Source of the DNA: Rhodothalassiaceae bacterium
GTDB taxonomy: Bacteria > Pseudomonadota > Alphaproteobacteria > Sphingomonadales > Rhodothalassiaceae
Reading direction: 5' to 3'
Assembly (NCBI GenBank): GCA_026004935.1
Contig: BPKC01000001.1
Span: 1,899,491-1,963,490 of the forward strand
Length of the DNA stretch: 64,000 nt
Shown here piece after piece: positions 13,059 to 51,858 of this stretch. The notes beneath the pieces are model-generated. The model made no database searches, was not told the origin of the DNA, and worked only from the letters and a program-made list of their open reading frames with translations. A program made the position numbers and the translations under genes. Position 1 is the first letter of the stretch, and every line of letters starts with the position of its first letter.

Positions 13059-13438
13059 GTCGTTCGCCGGCTCGGCCGGCGAACCCATGAGGCGGTGATG
13101 GCCACCGTGGTGGCGGGCGTTGGGGCCGCCGCCCGCTGGACCCGCCGGTCAAGCCGGCGGGTGACGCAGAGAGAGGGTGCCGGCGGGCGACGTCCCCTTT
13201 CTCGTCATTCGCCGCGAATGCGGCGAATCCAGCCGTCATGCGAGGCAGCATCCGCCACTGGGAATCGGCCCCGCTGCCCGCTGGACCCGCCGATCAGGCC
13301 GGCGGGTGACGTGAGAAGGAGATGGACCCGCCGGAGGCCGGCGGGTGACGTGAGAAGGAGATGGACCCGCCGGCCGAGCCGGCGGGTGACGAAAGAAGGG
13401 GGGAAGGACCCGCCGGCTTGACGCTTGCGGCGGCGAAT
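13059..13438. repeat. Palindromic repeat cluster 2 (intergenic 12971-13510)
   Basis: The 540-bp gap holds about six palindromes of the same family as cluster 1, at roughly 13059-13088, 13136-13165, 13203-13232, 13282-13310, 13323-13349 and 13362-13389, with a decayed one near 13407-13438. The first four form two inverted pairs. The fifth and sixth are in direct tandem with a 39-bp period (GTGACGTGAGAAGGAGATGG linkers). Loops vary (GGAGG, CGAG, TCAA), showing compensation to keep the GCCGG stems. The remaining bases show no gene. Confidence 0.85.
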
Positions 13439-20751: not shown

Positions 20752-20892
20752 CCGCCGCCGGGCTTTCCGCGCTTCCTCCGCTTCTCCGCCCCGCCGGCCT
20801 CATGCACCCTCTTCACGTCCGCGGCCCGGATGCCCACTGCGCCACCGGCCGGCACCCTTCCCTCGCTCGTCACCCATCGCCCCTTCTTTTTG

Positions 20893-21475
20893 CGTCACCC
20901 GCCGGCTCGACCGGCGGGTGACGAGGGCGGCGGTGCCGACCACCTTCACCGGCATCCGTCGCCCATGCTGACCGGATTCGCCGCTTTCGCGGCGAATGAC
21001 GAGGAAAAGAGCGTCACCCGCCGGCTCGACCGGCGGGTCCAGCCGACAGTGAAGACGACGACCGGCGTCGGAGCCCACACCACCGCCTCATGGGTTCGCC
21101 GGTCAAGCCGGCGAACGACGCGAGGAGAAAGCGTCACCCGCCGCCCCTCCTTTCTGCGTCACCCGCCGCCCCTCCTTTCTGCGTCACCCGCCGGCTCGAC
21201 CGGCGGGTCCAGCCGACAGTGAAGACGACGACCGGCGTCGGAGCCCACACCACCGCCTCATGGGTTCGCCGGTCAAGCCGGCGAACGACGCGAGGAGAAA
21301 GCGTCACCCGCCGCTCCTCCTTTCTGCGTCACCCGCCGCCCCTCCTTTCTGCGTCACCCGCCGCCCCTCCTTTCTGCGTCACCCGCCGGCTTGACCGGCG
21401 GGTCCAGCGGGGGGCGGAGCAAGCTCGACCGTCGGGAATGCCCGCCTCGTGGTCAATGACGCGGAAAAGCGCGTC
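20893..21475. repeat. Palindromic repeat cluster 3 (intergenic 20752-21577)
   Basis: The 826-bp gap between the GMC dehydrogenase and nnrS holds the same palindrome family. A symmetrical GTCAC...GTGAC element lies at 20893-20921, a TTCGCCGC-type element at 20974-21001, then two copies of an inverted pair, and a final CCGCCGG/TTGA element at 21378-21408. No gene, promoter or RNA structure is otherwise evident in this gap. Confidence 0.85.
21011..21350 (+). repeat. 170-bp tandem duplication with embedded 25-bp tandem repeats
   Basis: 21011-21180 is repeated as 21181-21350 with almost no change. Each unit holds an inverted palindrome pair (21013-21119 and 21183-21289) plus a tail of 25-bp repeats beginning GCGTCACCCGCCGCCCCTCC. 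The 25-bp unit occurs twice in the first copy and three times in a row at 21301-21375. This is recent amplification inside a repeat cluster. Confidence 0.9.
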
Positions 21476-21577
21476 ACCCGCCGGTGCGCCCCCCGCATCC
21501 CGCAGCGGCACCTCCCATCCTCGTCCGTTAGCGAACCCTTGCCCGCTTGCGACCGGCGGCCGCTGACGGACGGCCGG

Positions 21578-38525: not shown

Positions 38526-39133
38526 CGTCGTTCGCCGGCCATCTCTTTTTTTCGCGTCGTTCGCCGGCTTGACCGGCGAACCCATGCGGCGGACGTGGCA
38601 TCTTCGGCGCAAAAGGTTGGCCCGGCTGTCGGCTGGACCCGCCGATCAAGTCGGCGGGTGACGAGGGAAAGGAGCGGGCCCGCCGGTCAAGCCGGCGGGT
38701 GACGCAGAAACGTGCTTGCGGGGGAAGGCAACCTCCTGCTCCCGGCATCCCGTCTGGCCGCAAGGATCGAGAATGCGCACCGGCGGGTGACCTCTCTCTC
38801 CCGCGTCGTTCGCCGGCTTGACCGGCGAACCCATGCGGCGGACGTGGCATCTTCGGCGCAAAAGGTTGGCCCGGCTGTCGGCTGGACCCGCCGGTCAGGC
38901 CGGCGGGTGACGAGGGAAAGGAGCGGGACCCGCCGGTCAAGCCGGCGGGTGACGATGGCGAGTGCACGCCGGCGGTGACGCGCCCCTCTCTCGTCATTCG
39001 CCGCGAAAGCGGCGAATCCAGCCGCCGCCAGGGAAGAACCCGGCGGTTGCGGCTGTCTCCGCGTCCTGCTGGATCCGCCGATCAAGTCGGCGGATGACGA
39101 GGGATGGGCGTGGACCCGCCGATCAAGCGGGTG
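38526..39133. repeat. Palindromic repeat cluster 4 (intergenic 38363-39172)
   Basis: The 810-bp gap between the TetR gene and the cyclophilin gene holds about ten palindromes of the four stem types. A block of about 151 bp (38554-38704) is repeated as 38803-38954 with a few substitutions and one inserted base. A separate 111-bp inverted pair at 38991-39101 is the reverse complement of units in cluster 5. No gene was found; short frames here are repeats read as codons. Confidence 0.87.
38991..39101 (-). repeat. 111-bp composite repeat unit, inverted copy
   Basis: Reverse complement of the units at 47377-47487 and 48454-48564, with about two mismatches over 111 bp. It consists of a TTCGCCGC-type palindrome, a roughly 45-bp core and an ATCCGCCGA-type palindrome, so the same core travels with the same palindrome pair at sites 8 kb apart in opposite orientation. 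Confidence 0.9.
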
Positions 39134-44556: not shown

Positions 44557-45099
44557 TCACAGCCAGATCTGGATCGGCCCCTGGGCGGCGTCGCAGTTGA
44601 CGAGCTCGACCTTCTTGAGGCCGATGCGGAAGCCGCCGGGGCCGCCGCTGAGGCGATGCGTCACGCGCGCGCCGAAGACCTGCTGCTCGTCGCGCCGGTA
44701 CTGGAAGGCCACCAGCTTCGAACGCACGACGAGCCGCCCGTCCGCCAGGCTGCGGCCGATGATGCGTGGAGAGGAGACGACGCGCAATCCCCTCGGCATG
44801 GGCTGGAGGGAATAGGCGTCCTCATGCGCGAAACGCCGGGCGCGCACCGCCCGCAGCAGCGCGTCCTCGAACATCAGCGAGACATGGCGGAACGGGTCGG
44901 GCTGGTCGGGGCTTGCGGGCATCCAGTAACGGCCTTCCGGCTCGAAGAGTGCGAGCCAGTCCTGATACCGCCCGTCATCGAGCAGCTCCGCCTCCTCCTC
45001 GAGGAAGGCCGCGACCGCCGCGGCATCGGGCAGGTCCCGCGCCGCGAACTCCTCGGGGCCCGCGAAGTGGATCCCGGCCCGTGCTTCCGCCGCCGTCAT
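44557..45099 (-). CDS. Aromatic-ring-hydroxylating dioxygenase, beta subunit
   Basis: Small structural subunit of a Rieske non-haem iron oxygenase, 180 residues, with the SnoaL-like cone fold of the Ring_hydroxyl_B family. Features: LPDAAAVAAFLEEEAELLDDGRYQDWLALF near the start, YWMPASPDQPD, SLMFEDALLRAVRARRF, RVVSSPRIIG, and the ending GLKKVELVNCDAAQ followed by GPIQIWL. The ATG at 45099 overlaps the alpha-subunit stop by 4 bp (ATGA), so the alpha and beta subunits are translationally coupled and likely form an alpha3beta3 complex. Confidence 0.9.
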   Translation of the reverse strand: MTAAEARAGIHFAGPEEFAARDLPDAAAVAAFLEEEAELLDDGRYQDWLALFEPEGRYWMPASPDQPDPFRHVSLMFEDALLRAVRARRFAHEDAYSLQPMPRGLRVVSSPRIIGRSLADGRLVVRSKLVAFQYRRDEQQVFGARVTHRLSGGPGGFRIGLKKVELVNCDAAQGPIQIWL

Positions 45100-46466
45100 C
45101 GTGCCGCCTCCCGCATCGGGCCGTGGGCCGCAAATCCTCCCGTCATGTAGTAGCGCCAGGCCGCATACTGGTTGCGGAACACCATGTCGGACGAGCCGAT
45201 GGCGCTCCAGCCGCCCTCGTCGTTGCGCCGGGCGGCATCCGGATAGCGGTCCATCGTCACCCGCGCCCCGGGGGATCCCGCGAGCGCCTGGTGCTGGCGC
45301 CAGTAGCATTCCTCGTCGTCCGGCCCGACGATCCCGGCGTGGGAGTTGATGAGGTTGCAGTAGAGGATCGACCGCTCGAGCAGCGCCTCGGGTGCGCCCT
45401 TGAGCCGGAGCGTCCAGGATTCGATGAGCGTGCGGTCGACGGCCAGCGGCCGCACCACACGGATCGTCTGGATCGGCCCCTTCACGGTGAGCGAGGGGTA
45501 GATCACCGTGTTGTGCCGCTGCATCGAGAGAATCTCGCGCGTGCGCTCCGCGCCGCAGGCCTTCTCGAGGGCGGCCACGTATTCCGGGATCTCCCGGTAG
45601 CCGGAATGAATGGACACGCGCCCGCCCGAATAGCTGTGGCCGTAGGCGAAGGCGTGCACCCCCATCTCGTCGAAGAAGCGGTAGGTGTTCGTGAACGGCC
45701 CCAGGATCTCGATCGCCGCCGGCACCTCGCGTCCGCCATCCAGCTCCTGCTTGGCGACGATCCGCGCCGTGCGCGAGGAGGAGCGGTGCGCGACCATGGG
45801 GTGCAGCATGTCGTTCAGGTTCTCGACGAAGAATTTCCAGTTCGAGTTGTGCACATAGCGCAGCACGCCGCCCGTGACCTCGAGCGCGCCTTCCGGTGCG
45901 CGCGCGACCATGTTGTCGATCGAGGCGCGGGCGCCGCCGAGCCACTCGGCGAGCGGCGGCACGGCATCTGTGAGGCTGGCGAACACGAAGCCGCGGTAGG
46001 AATCGCAGCGCGCAACCGGCTCGAGATCACGCAGCCGGGCATCCTCGCCGATGCAGGTGCCGGCATAGCCCTCGGGCAGCGGGATGGAGCGGTTCCGGCC
46101 GTCGCGGCCGAAGCACCAGCCGTGGTAGCCGCAGCGCAGCACCTTGGCGTGGCCTGAGCCCTCGGGCACCACCATCGCGCCCTTGTGCGGGCAGCGATTG
46201 TGGAGCACCCGGATCGCACCGTCATCGCCCCGGATCATGATCACCGGCACGCGGCCGATGCGGGTGGCGTACCAGTCGCCCGGCTCCGGCACCTGGCTTT
46301 CGTGGCCGACATAGATCCAGGTGCCGCCCCATATGCGGCGGAGCTCCTCCTCGAAGATCGCCGGATCGGTGTAGATCCGCCCGCGCACGCCGGCGGCCTC
46401 CACCAGCCCGTCCGCGCCCGCCGCCGTCCCGGCGGCCGGCATCTCGGTCTGCGCCTGATCGAGCAT
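45096..46466 (-). CDS. Aromatic-ring-hydroxylating dioxygenase, alpha subunit (Rieske)
   Basis: Catalytic subunit of 456 residues. The Rieske [2Fe-2S] motif is C-P-H (HNRCPHKGAMV) and C-x-x-H (LRCGYHGWCFG), residues about 85-110. The mononuclear iron site has the 2-His pattern in NLNDMLHPMVAH (about 215-226) and an Asp further on. The overall size matches anthranilate/salicylate-type oxygenase alpha chains, but the substrate cannot be told. No ferredoxin or reductase gene for electron supply is in the operon. ATG at 46466 with AGGAGAGAGG upstream. A promoter and inverted-repeat operator lie just upstream, divergent from the MarR gene. Confidence 0.93.
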   Translation of the reverse strand: MLDQAQTEMPAAGTAAGADGLVEAAGVRGRIYTDPAIFEEELRRIWGGTWIYVGHESQVPEPGDWYATRIGRVPVIMIRGDDGAIRVLHNRCPHKGAMVVPEGSGHAKVLRCGYHGWCFGRDGRNRSIPLPEGYAGTCIGEDARLRDLEPVARCDSYRGFVFASLTDAVPPLAEWLGGARASIDNMVARAPEGALEVTGGVLRYVHNSNWKFFVENLNDMLHPMVAHRSSSRTARIVAKQELDGGREVPAAIEILGPFTNTYRFFDEMGVHAFAYGHSYSGGRVSIHSGYREIPEYVAALEKACGAERTREILSMQRHNTVIYPSLTVKGPIQTIRVVRPLAVDRTLIESWTLRLKGAPEALLERSILYCNLINSHAGIVGPDDEECYWRQHQALAGSPGARVTMDRYPDAARRNDEGGWSAIGSSDMVFRNQYAAWRYYMTGGFAAHGPMREAAR

Positions 46467-46495
46467 GGCCTCTCTCCTCTTCCCGCTCGCGGAAA

Positions 46496-46523
46496 ATGAT
46501 ACCGCAGTTGCGTGATTTTTCAA
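46496..46523 (-). promoter_or_regulatory. Sigma-70 promoter of the Rieske operon
   Basis: On the minus strand, TTGAAA (46523-46518) and TATCAT (46501-46496) are 16 bp apart, each five of six matches to consensus. Transcription would start near 46489, 23 bp upstream of the alpha-subunit ATG. Confidence 0.7.
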
Positions 46524-46537
46524 GTTTCAAGATTCAC
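46512..46537. promoter_or_regulatory. Candidate MarR operator (imperfect inverted repeat) in the Rieske-MarR gap
   Basis: GTGAT...TTCAC ends at 46512-46537 form an imperfect 26-bp inverted repeat; a TTTCAAG direct repeat (46518-46531) lies within it. It overlaps the -35 of the Rieske operon promoter and lies in the divergent gap shared with the MarR gene. Arms match at only about 60 percent, so this is tentative. Confidence 0.4.
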
Positions 46538-46648
46538 CCTCTTGCCAGCGCCCCGTCTCCCGGCGAATATGTCGCGCGGTGGAAGCCGCCGTTGCACGCC
46601 TGGCGGGCGGATGGCGGCACATTCCGGAGATCCGGAGGGAGGAGACGG

Positions 46649-47194
46649 GTGAGCAGCGACGGGCGGTCGCCCGCGGTCCTTGCCGCGGGAAGCGGGGACG
46701 AGGTGACGGAATTGAAACGCCGCGGGCGGCCTCTGCCGCCGGAGAGCGATCCGGGGCACGCACGCTTTCACAGCAGCCGCTATCCCTTCTATCTGATGGC
46801 GCACGCGCTGGGCAGCTACGGGCGACACATGGAGCGCGCCCTGAAGCGCATCGGCACGGACCAGCCGCACTGGCGGATCCTTGCGATCCTCGGGGAGAAC
46901 GGAACCACGCCGGTCAGCCGCATCGCCGACAAGGCGGTCTACAAGCTGTCCACGGTGACCCGCATCATCCAGCGCATGGAGGCGAAGGGGCTCGTGACCA
47001 CGCGTCGCAGCCCGCGCGATGCGCGCGTGACGGAGGTGACCCTTACCCCCATGGGCGAGGCGGAGCTGCGCCGTGTGCGGGCGGTCGCCTCGAGGATCGC
47101 CAACGAGGCCTTCGCGGGCTTCAGCCGCGAGGAGATCGCGACCCTCATCGCGCTTCTCACGCGCGTGGACTCCGCGCTCGAGGAGATGGAGTAA
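46649..47194 (+). CDS. MarR-family transcription regulator
   Basis: Regulator of 181 residues, winged helix. The recognition helix is in TPVSRIADKAVYKLSTVTRIIQRMEAKGLVTTRRSPRDARVTEVTLTPMG, with the wing in the DARVTEVTLT segment. The N-terminal 40 residues are acidic and basic and not conserved. Start is a GTG at 46649, preceded by GGAGGGAGGAG; the frame remains open to 46496 but the upstream part overlaps the promoter region. Divergent from the Rieske oxygenase operon, which it probably controls in response to an aromatic acid or its CoA ester. Confidence 0.87.
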   Translation: MSSDGRSPAVLAAGSGDEVTELKRRGRPLPPESDPGHARFHSSRYPFYLMAHALGSYGRHMERALKRIGTDQPHWRILAILGENGTTPVSRIADKAVYKLSTVTRIIQRMEAKGLVTTRRSPRDARVTEVTLTPMGEAELRRVRAVASRIANEAFAGFSREEIATLIALLTRVDSALEEME

Positions 47195-47266
47195 CGCGCC
47201 CGCCGCGCCTGCCCCCACTCACCCGTCGGCACCTCTTCTTGGTGACGTGCCGACATGCCATTCTTT

Positions 47267-47338
47267 CGTCACCCGCCGGCACTCTCTTTTCGTCACCCGC
47301 CGGCACTCTCTTTTCGTCACCCGCCGGCACTCTCTTTT
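47267..47338 (+). repeat. 24-bp tandem repeat, three copies
   Basis: The unit CGTCACCCGCCGGCACTCTC followed by TTTT occurs three times head to tail at 47267-47290, 47291-47314 and 47315-47338, then runs into a full palindrome. It looks like one half of the palindrome amplified at the edge of the cluster. The same half element recurs within the 320-bp units. Confidence 0.92.
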
Positions 47339-47376
47339 CGTCACCCGCCGGCTTGACCGGCGGGTCCCATCTTTCC

Positions 47377-47487
47377 CTCGTCATCCGCCGACTTGATCGG
47401 CGGATCCAGCAGGACGCGGAGAGAGCCGCAAGCGCCGGGTTCTTCCCTGGCGGCGGCTGGATTCGCCGCTTTCGCGGCGAATGACGA
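47377..47487 (+). repeat. 111-bp composite repeat unit (cluster 5, left)
   Basis: ATCCGCCGA-type palindrome, core, TTCGCCGC-type palindrome. Apparently identical over 111 bp to 48454-48564 and the inverse of 38991-39101. Confidence 0.92.
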
Positions 47488-47580
47488 GAACAGAAGAGCG
47501 TCACCCGCCGACCTGACCGGCGGGTCCAGCCGTCAGCGGACACGACGACCCGTGCCGGGGCTGCCGTCACCGCCTGCTGG

Positions 47581-48487
47581 GTTCGCCGGTCAAGCCGGCG
47601 AACGACGCGGAAGGGGCATCACCCGCCGTTGCGCACTCCCCATCGTCACCCGCCGGCACTCTCTTTTCGTCACCCGCCGGCTCGACCGGCGGGTCCAGCC
47701 GTCAGCGGACACGACGACCCGTGCCGGGGCTGCCGTCACCGCCTGCTGGGTTCGCCGGTCAAGCCGGCGAACGACGCGACCGGGCACGAGTCATCCGCCA
47801 CGACGTACCTTACCTCGTCATCCGCCGACTTGATCGGCGGATCCAGCCAAAAGCCGGGCCACTCACAGGCATCGGGGTTGCCGTCACCGCAGCACCAAGG
47901 GTTCGCCGGTCAAGCCGGCGAACGACGCGGAAGGGGCATCACCCGCCGTTGCGCACTCCCGATCGTCACCCGCCGGCACTCTCTTTTCGTCACCCGCCGG
48001 CTCGACCGGCGGGTCCAGCCGTCAGCGGACACGACGACCCGCGCCGGGGCTGCCGTCACCGCCCGATGGGTTCGCCGGTCAAGCCGGCGAACGACGCGAC
48101 CGGGCACGAGTCATCCGCCACGGCGTACCTTACCTCGTCATCCGCCGACTTGATCGGCGGATCCAGCCAAAAGCCGGGCCACTCACAGGCATCGGGGCTG
48201 CCGTCACCGCAGCAGCAAGGGTTCGCCGGTCAAGCCGGCGAACGACGCGGAAGGGGCATCACCCGCCGTTGCGCACTCCCGATCGTCACCCGCCGGCACT
48301 CTCTTTTCGTCACCCGCCGGCTCGACCGGCGGGTCCAGCCGTCAGCGGACACGACGACCCGTGCGGGGGCTGCCGCCCCCGCCCGCTGGGTTCGCCGGTC
48401 AAGCCGGCGAACGACGCGACCGGGCACGCGTCATCCGCCACGACGTACCTTACCTCGTCATCCGCCGACTTGATCGGCGGATCCAGC
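47581..48487 (+). repeat. 320-bp tandem repeat array, 2.8 copies
   Basis: Units begin at 47581, 47901 and 48221, an exact 320-bp period; the third is cut at 48487 where it joins a second copy of the 111-bp unit. Each unit holds about five palindromes in a fixed order with invariant cores (for example GGGCATCACCCGCCGTTGCG, at 47614, 47934 and 48254). I see only scattered substitutions between units. The perfect period and low divergence show recent amplification by unequal crossover or replication slippage. Confidence 0.93.
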
Positions 48488-48564
48488 AGGACGCGGAGAG
48501 AGCCGCAAGCGCCGGGTTCTTCCCTGGCGGCGGCTGGATTCGCCGCTTTCGCGGCGAATGACGA
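48454..48564 (+). repeat. 111-bp composite repeat unit (cluster 5, right)
   Basis: Second direct copy of the unit at 47377-47487, flanking the 320-bp array on the other side. Confidence 0.92.
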
Positions 48565-48672
48565 AAAAAGGAGAGCGTCACCCGCCGGCGCCTTCTCCCT
48601 GCGCATCAGCCCCCGTCGCGGCATCATCTCCTCACCCGCCGGCGTACTGTTCTCTCGTCACCCGGAGGCGGG

Positions 48673-49973
<1,301 letters not shown>

Positions 49974-49989
<16 letters not shown>

Positions 49990-51858
49990 GCCGCATCTCC
50001 TTTCTGGCCGCAGGGCGGAAACGGCACGGCGGGGCGAGGCGGCATGAACTCCTCGCGCGGCAGCCAATGGACGATCCGCCCATCACGCATGGTCATCCGC
50101 ACACGGATGCGTGAAAGCTCCCTCGGGTTCACCGCGAAGGGATCCGCCGTGAGCGCGACGAGGTCGGCCCGACTGCCGACGGCGAGCATGCCGCGCGCGC
50201 CCTCCTCGCCCATCAGATAGGCTCCCGCCCGGGTCAGCGCCGTCATCACCTCCTTCGAGCCCCAGCCGCTGATCGGACAGCCAGGGTGCGGCCGCATCGT
50301 CCTCTGGATCGGCGCGCCGGACCGCCACTTCCGCGGCGGCCATCGGATCGGGCGTGGAAACCGGCCAGTCCGAGCCCATGGCCAGCCGCGCTCCGGCCCG
50401 CGCCAGCATCGCGAAGGGATAGAGCAGGTTCACCCGCCCGGGCGCGAGATGCGGCAGCGTCAGATCCGTGATGTAGGGATCCGGATACGCCCACAGCGCC
50501 TGGATGTTCGCGGTGGCCCCGAGCGCCGCAAAGCGCGGCGCATCCGCGGGATCCACGAGCTCGAGATGGGCGAGATGCGGGCGCGCGGCCGCAAGCTTCG
50601 CCCATCCCAGCCGCGCGCGCGCCGCCTCCAGCGCGTCGAGCGCCACCCTGACCGCCCGGTCCCCGAGGGCGTGGAAATGCGGCTGGAAGCCCGCGGCGAT
50701 CACCGCCGTCACATGGTCCGCCAGCACGTCCGGCGGGATGTTGAGCTGCCCCTCGGGGTCCACGCCTTCCGGCACGTCGCGGTAGGGCTCGAGGACCGCG
50801 GCGGTGAAATTCTCCATCACGCCGTCGACGAAGATCTTGACGCAGTCGGCGCGCACCGCAGGGTTGCCGACGGCGTCGAAGCGCGCACGCCGGGCCTTCA
50901 GCCGTTCGATGACGGGGGCGATGTCGGCCCGGGTCATGGTGCCGGCCATGATGTCGGCCCCGGGCAGCAGACAGAGCCGGAGATCGAGCCCCGGTTGCGG
51001 CGCCTTGTGCTCGCGATCTGGCTCGAGCGACCGGCGGGCGTAGCGCAGGAAGGCCTCCTCCATGGGCCCCTCCGTCACCGCCGCATCGATGGCCGCCGTG
51101 TACCCGAGGTCGTTCATGTAGGCCATCGCGGCCGCAAGCGCGGCGTCCTGCTCGGCCGGCGTCGGCTCGGGCACGATCGCCCGCACGAGGGCGACCGCCG
51201 CCTCGCGCAGCGTGCCGGTGGGCTCGCCGGTCTTCGGGTCCCGCTCGATGCGCCCGCCCGGCGGATCCGGCGTGTCCTTCGTGATCCCGGCCGCCTTGAG
51301 CGCCGCGGAGTTCACCCAGGCGTTGTGGCCGTCGGCGGCGATCAGCACAACCGGCCGCTCCGGCACCACCGCATCGAGCAGCTCCTTCTTCGGATGGGCC
51401 CCGGGAAACAGATTGAGCTCCCAGCCCTCGCCCGCGATCACGGCAAGCGCCGGATGCGCCTCGGCATGGGCCTTGACCAGCGCGACCACCTCATCCGCCG
51501 TCGCCGCCGCGTGCAGCGAAAGCCCCAGGAGCGACCGGCCCCCGTCCAGGAGATGCACATGGGCGTCCGTGAAGCCCGGAAAGACGGCCTCGTCATCGGC
51601 GAGCCCGATCCGGCGCGTCTGCGGCCCTGCGAGCGCCAGGATCTCCTCGCGGCTGCCGAGCGCGGTGATCCGGCCGTCACGGATGGCGAGCGCCTCGACA
51701 ACGCGGCCCATCGGATCCATCGTGTAGATCCGCCCGGCCGTGAGCACCGCATCCGGGACGGGCGCGGCCGCATCGCCCGCCGCGCCGGCCGGCCCGGCAA
51801 CGAGCAGCAGCCCGGACAGAAGAGCGCCCGCCAGAGCTTCTCCGGCCGCCCCGCGCAT
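49974..51858 (-). pseudogene. Exported amidohydrolase (YtcJ-like), frameshifted near the C terminus
   Basis: Metal-dependent hydrolase with an apparent signal peptide (GALLSGLLLVAGPAGAAG). The amidohydrolase core is present: [12 protein letters not shown] near residue 95 (HxH metal ligands), NPAVRADCVKIFVDGVMEN (the Lys), PHFHALGDRAVRVAL, ARPHLAHLELVDP and AMGSDWPVSTPDP (the Asp). From about residue 530 the proper ending (KEVMTALTRAGAYLMGEEGARG, SRADLVALTADPFAVNPREL, IVHWLPREE) is in a different frame. Removing one G from the GGGG at 50260-50263 restores a protein of about 627 residues ending at 49974. Start ATG at 51858 shares one base with the TonB receptor stop. Real decay or assembly error cannot be told apart here. 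Confidence 0.83.

Follow-up and report, generated by a model that had tools for sequence, protein, structure and literature searches.

The 320-bp tandem array at positions 47556–48487 of the window (the whole 64-kb stretch of DNA that was analysed) is, judged by its sequence, a cluster of head-head dimers of CGTC-tagged REPs, the family set out by Di Nocera, De Gregorio and Rocco in 2013 (PMC3733652, in the parts available to us). The array is probably a partly triplicated stretch within a cluster of such dimers, located between convergent 3' ends and generated by duplication between REPs.

The 320-bp array and its locus

The original prediction was of a higher-order tandem array built from palindromes in an intergenic gap, and each 320-bp unit does contain two palindromic dimers. 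The predicted unit starts, 47581, 47901 and 48221, are spaced by exactly 320 bp, and substitutions are few, as claimed (7/320 mismatches between units 1 and 2, 6/267 between units 1 and 3, and 7/267 between units 2 and 3). TRF reported the array at 47556–48487 with a period of 320, 2.9 copies, 96% matches, 0% indels and a score of 1745. A repeat search placed 300-nt copies at 47579, 47899 and 48219, the latter two with 98% and 93% identity to the first, the 300-nt window of the third copy extending beyond the end of the repeat. All three claimed units are present, but the third is partial, with 267 of 320 bases and an end at 48487. Likewise, the array exists as described but forms only part of a larger REP cluster, whose features are given below.

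47267–48587, no strand: whole REP cluster of eight head-head dimers, one further REP and seven half-REPs (REP finder)
47556–48487, +: 320-bp tandem array, 2.9 copies (TRF, unit comparison)
47264–47352, +: 24-bp half-REP ladder (tag, 5' stem arm and pyrimidine linker), 3.7 copies (TRF), running into the REP at 47339–47368
47339–47368, +: partnerless REP of left (L) type
47379–47486, +: dimer B0 (L then R), within the left 111-bp unit
47499–47607, +: dimer A0; its right REP (47578–47607) opens unit 1
47668–47776, +: dimer A1 (unit 1), preceded by a half-REP at 47644–47655
47816–47927, +: dimer C1, B-type left REP and A-type right REP
47988–48096, +: dimer A2 (unit 2), preceded by a half-REP at 47964–47975
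48136–48247, +: dimer C2
48308–48416, +: dimer A3 (unit 3), preceded by a half-REP at 48284–48295
48456–48563, +: dimer B3, within the right 111-bp unit, which is identical to that around B0
48576–48587, +: half-REP after B3
46496–47194, +: MarR-family gene, 3' end facing the cluster (PF01047, 51 bits)
48673–50067, −: class-III aminotransferase gene, 3' end facing the cluster (PF00202, 294.6 bits)

The two dimers of each 320-bp unit, one of A type and one mixed (left REP of B type, right REP of A type), are directly oriented L-to-R heterodimers, i.e. two inverted hairpins; a half-REP completes the unit. Unit 1 starts within the right REP of A0, and unit 3 ends just past the left REP of B3. B0 and B3, on the outside, are of B type throughout. 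The same 111-bp unit was predicted on both flanks, and 47377–47487 and 48454–48564 are identical at 111/111 positions. These are not special termini, however, but two B-type dimers of a genome-wide family, with 100 matches in the genome for the B type and 196 for the A type (E≤0.001).

Beyond the two flanking genes lie a gene for a Rieske ring-hydroxylating oxygenase alpha subunit (45096–46523, −) and one for an amidohydrolase (50083–51858, −). For the aminotransferase, identity to named relatives does not exceed 64% (80 of 572 loci kept). Three open reading frames (47721–48470 and 48269–48985 on the + strand, 47160–47570 on the − strand) were rejected as genes, as none matches a Pfam family at E≤0.01. 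Rfam gave nothing up to E=1 for 46500–49500, and there was no tRNA gene within the 64-kb window and no terminator-like site or promoter in 47000–48800, where a search for intrinsic terminators (a GC-rich hairpin followed by a T run) gave 0 on either strand. The window holds four more CGTC-REP clusters, at 888–1300, 13059–13420, 20883–21485 and 38527–39110, two of which have tandem arrays of their own by TRF (one with a 39-bp period, the other with periods of 170 bp and 25 bp).

Structure of the REPs and their dimers

The generic REP pattern, CGTCAYYCNNNNNCTYGANNNNNGRRTCCA with one mismatch allowed, has 631 matches in the 2.91-Mb genome and 0 in the reversed control. Any match at all occurs in 25 of the 147 genomes of the order, where the next highest counts are 68, 68, 55, 37, 34 and 30; these counts are lower bounds, as REPs with different loops escape the pattern and draft assemblies are interrupted at repeats. 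We examined 56 REP regions, chosen by sequence matches and containing 296 of the 631 pattern matches, with a REP finder that required an NGTC start and a CC end and allowed one stem mismatch. This yielded 522 full REPs.

A REP here consists of a CGTC tag, a stem of ~9 bp, a loop of 4–5 nt and CCA, and a dimer consists of two inverted REPs with their tags outermost. Of 100 distinct REP sequences, each of the 12 commonest starts with CGTC, and most of the commonest end in CCA. Stems of 8–9 bp and loops of 4–5 nt are seen in the REP sequences and their compensated pairs. Head-head arrangement predominates, with 192 of 201 adjacent inward pairs in the 56 regions separated by a 48–50 bp spacer. Left REPs (L) carry C at the third stem position, while right REPs (R) carry TT at positions two and three. 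By these marks, 192 of 198 dimers are L/R heterodimers, four pair a REP of undetermined type with an L, and two are L/L.

In the CGTC superfamily, A-T at the first and second stem pairs is described as almost invariable, with heterogeneity allowed (PMC3733652, parts available). The REPs analysed here depart from this pattern: the first pair of left REPs is A-T in 119/125, but the second is C-G in 98/125, and the first pair of right REPs is often G-C. Because the available description allows for stem heterogeneity, this departure marks a divergent family and does not exclude membership. Pairing is kept via double changes at pair 2 of the left stem (C-G 98, T-A 21, other 6) and at pair 9 (G-C 96, A-T 28, other 1; n=125 for both), with stem positions that were fitted and therefore favour apparent pairing. 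Additionally, four dimer stretches taken as single strands (one partly in both senses) fold better than 200 shuffles, with z from −3.5 to −5.1. The plus strand of A1 is predicted to fold into a structure of four arms that its two tags close, and its minus strand (47668–47777) into one long hairpin.

Clusters, arrays and joints across the genome

Clusters are described as rare in the CGTC superfamily, which is not what we found here: 49 of the 60 dimer-bearing clusters hold at least two dimers, a share that may be overstated since the regions were picked by sequence matches. Dimer direction is uniform in 45 of the 49 multi-dimer clusters; the other four include dimers of undetermined type, and none mixes directions. 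TRF, at periods of at least 60, found 51 arrays in 35 of the 56 regions, with periods of 81–404 bp and 1.8–5.3 copies. In most of them a unit holds about one dimer; in five it holds about two (286, 307, 317 and 404 bp, and the 320-bp array). The prediction had called the array satellite-like and unusual. By analogy the first term holds, in that several related monomers are repeated as a block; the second is not supported, as long-period arrays also occur in these other regions and in a further genus of the family.

Pairs of dimers with at least 97% identity number 83/335 within clusters and 15/19168 between clusters, where tandem duplication makes dimers of the same cluster non-independent. 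Median dimer identity is 0.77 within clusters and 0.74 between different clusters, and the nearest relative lies in the same cluster for 124 of 187 dimers. The within-cluster median of only 0.77, together with this last count, indicates that clusters also gather dimers other than local duplicates. Clusters mix old and young dimers. Of the predicted recent amplification, what stands is that it was local and later than most of the family's spread, since the units differ by 2–3% compared with a between-cluster median identity of 0.74.

Near-identical dimers in different clusters are scarce, with 14 cluster pairs at ≥0.95, some sharing flanks. Of the cross-cluster dimer pairs at least 93% identical, 32/51 have unrelated flanks on both sides (<60% identity over 30 nt), the number of events being smaller than that of pairs as the same clusters recur; the other 19 failed this threshold, and one of these had a flank cut by the end of the stretch. 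For example, the dimers at 806471 and 2612166 are 99.1% identical and 1.8 Mb apart. Unrelated flanks indicate that the unit repeated between loci is the dimer, tag to tag, and they are explicable by insertion or by gene conversion between shared REP ends. Clusters 512550/574631 and 1976600/1985328 (G000:C1) have inversely oriented flanks in common as well, which points to exchange between clusters or to copying of segments. After the R tract, several loci have a degenerate half-REP (GTCACCGCCGGTGCGCACTCCC-like), e.g. at 47608–47643 of the window, and the true repeated unit may therefore be longer than the dimer. The heptamer (RGTCATC)n, which resembles the REP tag plus the first stem bases, is present in 35/56 REP regions and often adjoins the R end of a dimer (e.g. 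L190 at ~2773 and L180 at ~1671).

The joints between repeats are regular. For 78 outermost REPs, the 11 nt 5' of the tag are pyrimidine-rich, with fractions of 0.82–0.94 at −9 to −2, 0.44 at −12 and a background of 0.50. In 76 short junctions (linkers of 6–16 nt) between outward-facing REPs or half-REPs, the linker is strand-pure and is owned by the R-type REP in 75; counted by region, the owner is R only in 32/33, with 38 distinct linkers. Because same-direction dimers make the adjacency of R to L automatic, only linker ownership is extra information. Half-REPs number 155 and occur in 48/56 regions. Exactly 12–16 nt are shared with a full REP type in 114 of these, which are thus broken at the hairpin apex; a substitution makes another 12 diverge earlier, and 29 diverge later, most of the latter being mutated full REPs. 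The half-REP search required the first 12 nt, so that this sample covers breaks beyond that point. A similar pattern gave 40 lone tail-side halves, and among the 30 listed most are mutated full REPs. Between a half-REP and the following tag of like orientation the step is 24–26 nt in 65/106 cases, and 75 steps of 20–30 nt comprise 43 distinct linkers (86% pyrimidine) as against 11 distinct halves.

With a home-made codon-usage gene caller, and with five stretch-end clusters dropped and clusters of fewer than three full REPs excluded, 56 placeable clusters fall into 27 convergent gaps (that of the 320-bp array included), 25 co-directional and 4 divergent. Compared with 9/45 gene pairs in the window, the convergent excess gives a Fisher p=0.0037, while the divergent deficit is not significant (p=0.074). 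This agrees with the convergent and unidirectional gaps reported by Di Nocera et al. (PMC3733652, parts available).

Among relatives, the one same-genus genome compared (G001) shows no REP within the 3.5 kb that surround its homologue of the MarR-family gene (62% protein identity). Half-REPs at 24–25-nt steps and pyrimidine-rich tracts recur in G002 and G004, from another genus of the family and with different stems, and in G020, from another family; G063, one of the four relatives examined, had no 24–25-nt ladder among 8 loci. Three larger stretches of G002 and G004 carry REP arrays of 95–186 bp and 24-bp ladders, and the 11 nt before the tag are 77–79% pyrimidine (17, 8 and 5 REPs). The arrays in these genomes indicate that tandem clustering is a trait of the family and not of the 320-bp locus.

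Origin of the array and relation to known systems

The 320-bp array is best read as a tandem duplication that arose locally and fairly late in a REP-dimer cluster, most simply through recombination or slippage from one REP to another. REP dimers would have entered an insertion-tolerant intergenic gap; stretches of one or two of them, along with their linkers, would then have been duplicated as these hairpin-forming repeats recombined or caused slippage in replication. Most likely the array has no function of its own, while its hairpins may have a role in the two transcripts' 3' regions. A REP tag is no more than 3 bases away at roughly 41 of 102 array ends (0.40 versus 0.11 at random), but ends at tags are expected anyway because the homology of dimers stops there. 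Arrays of whole units plus one extra dimer make up 11/43, with 6.7 expected. Array ends are found inside REPs less commonly than random points (0.30 versus 0.40), which, like the clustered dimers that are no local copies, counts against REP-REP duplication, and plain slippage predicts neither the R-owned linkers nor the apex-broken half-REPs.

A Y1_Tnp transposase of RAYT type had no match in the genome in a search that covered PF01797, and the same search was positive in 5/14 control genomes, E. coli among them. PF01797 occurs in 1/7 genomes of the family and 33/147 of the order; it is found together with the REP pattern in 3/147 genomes against 5.6 expected, and in one of the three (G108) the pattern match is single and non-palindromic. 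The REP family thus appears to lack a dedicated transposase, PF01797 being absent here and not co-occurring with the pattern over the 147 genomes. A RAYT-mobilised REPIN was considered and rejected: two inverted REPs do form one hairpin, but neither the GTAG tag nor a RAYT gene is present.

The regular joints are what a REP-guided nuclease might leave. Such a putative enzyme, acting on single-strand CGTC REPs as TnpA-REP or IS200-type enzymes might, would cut by the tag in the pyrimidine tract and join dimer-plus-tract units head to tail through a circular or strand-transfer intermediate. The polar linkers and apex-broken ladders fit a TnpA-REP-like single-strand nuclease, although no such enzyme was found, and near-exact concatemers of a dimer plus ~12 nt (period 120, 5.3 copies, 99% matches) as well as the unrelated flanks of cross-cluster dimers point the same way. 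TnpA-REP cleavage, with which we draw this comparison, was reportedly treated by Ton-Hoang in 2012. TnpA-REP cuts at CT or CA beside the REP, and the tag has been proposed to choose the site (PMC8266576, parts available). Against this stand the genome's lack of Y1_Tnp, the scarcity of genomes with both Y1 and the REP pattern, the non-independence of dimer pairs and the automatic R-L adjacency, and we consider a nuclease of this kind quite unlikely as the source of the array. A broader proposal, that CGTC REPs are still mobile by a polar single-strand process without a known Y1, is possible though somewhat unlikely. Its element would run from the L-REP over the spacer to the R-REP, with a strand-pure tract of 11 nt at the R end; joining of tract to tag would give head-to-tail concatemers, abortive events broken at the apex would leave units of a tag and half a stem in 24–25-nt ladders with varied pyrimidine linkers, and the arrays, the 320-bp one included, would be footprints of the process. 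Gene conversion between clusters, in which dimers overwrite one another across shared 30-bp ends and copy spacers without new insertion, would explain why identity stops at the tags in many pairs, as if shared REPs bound the exchanged tract, and why some clusters, e.g. 512550 and 574631, share longer flanks. Alone, however, it makes neither new sites nor tandem units and would not make half-REP ladders, and arms of 30 bp are short for homologous recombination; as the explanation of the array it is unlikely.

It is highly unlikely that selection maintains the array between its convergent genes as a bidirectional 3'-end or transcription-interference element. The excess of clusters in convergent gaps (with only 4/56 in divergent ones), the folding of dimers beyond shuffles and the double changes that keep left stems paired are all compatible with a selected function. 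Yet promoter avoidance explains the same location bias, with a divergent deficit that is not significant; paired stems are equally expected of a mobility recognition site, in stems whose fitted positions favour pairing; the locus gave no terminator-like site or Rfam match; and the same-genus relative has no REP there. Finally, tandem copies produced by misassembly of a single copy are almost certainly not the explanation. Repeats are hard to assemble and our analysis used the assembly without reads, but each unit carries private substitutions that an assembler could not have made from one copy, and comparable arrays with different periods exist at 35/56 regions and in a genome of another genus. 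The array in the cell may contain further copies that were collapsed in assembly.

In 2013 the CGTC REPs were said to "apparently lack a dedicated transposase", and what moves them was left open (PMC3733652, parts available). Of the 147 genomes of the order, the one analysed here is the richest in the REP pattern and has no Y1 transposases, and its regular joints (tract length, linker ownership and apex breaks) are constraints that any mechanism of CGTC-REP mobility must explain. Together, these properties make the question of CGTC-REP mobility testable.

The comparisons that follow draw on the available parts of the sources cited. The REPINs of Pseudomonas fluorescens SBW25 (Bertels and Rainey 2011, PMC3116915) share with our dimers a unit of two inverted REPs and ordered clusters of near-identical units including flanks, but are linked to RAYT transposases, none of which was found here, and differ in tag and sequence. 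As tandem clusters that include flanking sequence are known from these Pseudomonas REPINs (PMC3116915) and from GTAG families, this kind of array is already known. Enterobacterial BIMEs and tandem GTAG clusters (PMC3733652; by name in PMC6006769) have similar mosaics of REPs in alternating orientation and tandem arrays with flanking DNA, but they are GTAG-tagged and accompanied by TnpA-REP. Neisseria dRS3 (family CGTC-1 according to PMC3733652) belongs to the same superfamily and forms large clusters but, compared by description, has other stems and another host.

The CGTC-tagged REPs of PMC3733652 differ from those described here in that clusters are rare in Table 1 of that paper (Neisseria and Wolbachia excepted), whereas clusters dominate the regions we examined, and in that T-A is typical of the second stem pair where many stems here have C-G. 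The available parts of that paper describe neither the pyrimidine tract nor linker polarity nor half-REP ladders, and cluster frequency, polar linkers and apex-broken ladders are new as far as the CGTC-REP literature available to us shows. Shared with that family are the CGTC tag, stems of 9 bp with 5-nt loops or of 8 bp with 4–5-nt loops, the CCA tail, the predominance of head-head heterodimers with a conserved spacer length, the alpha-proteobacterial distribution, the location in convergent and unidirectional gaps and the want of an associated transposase.
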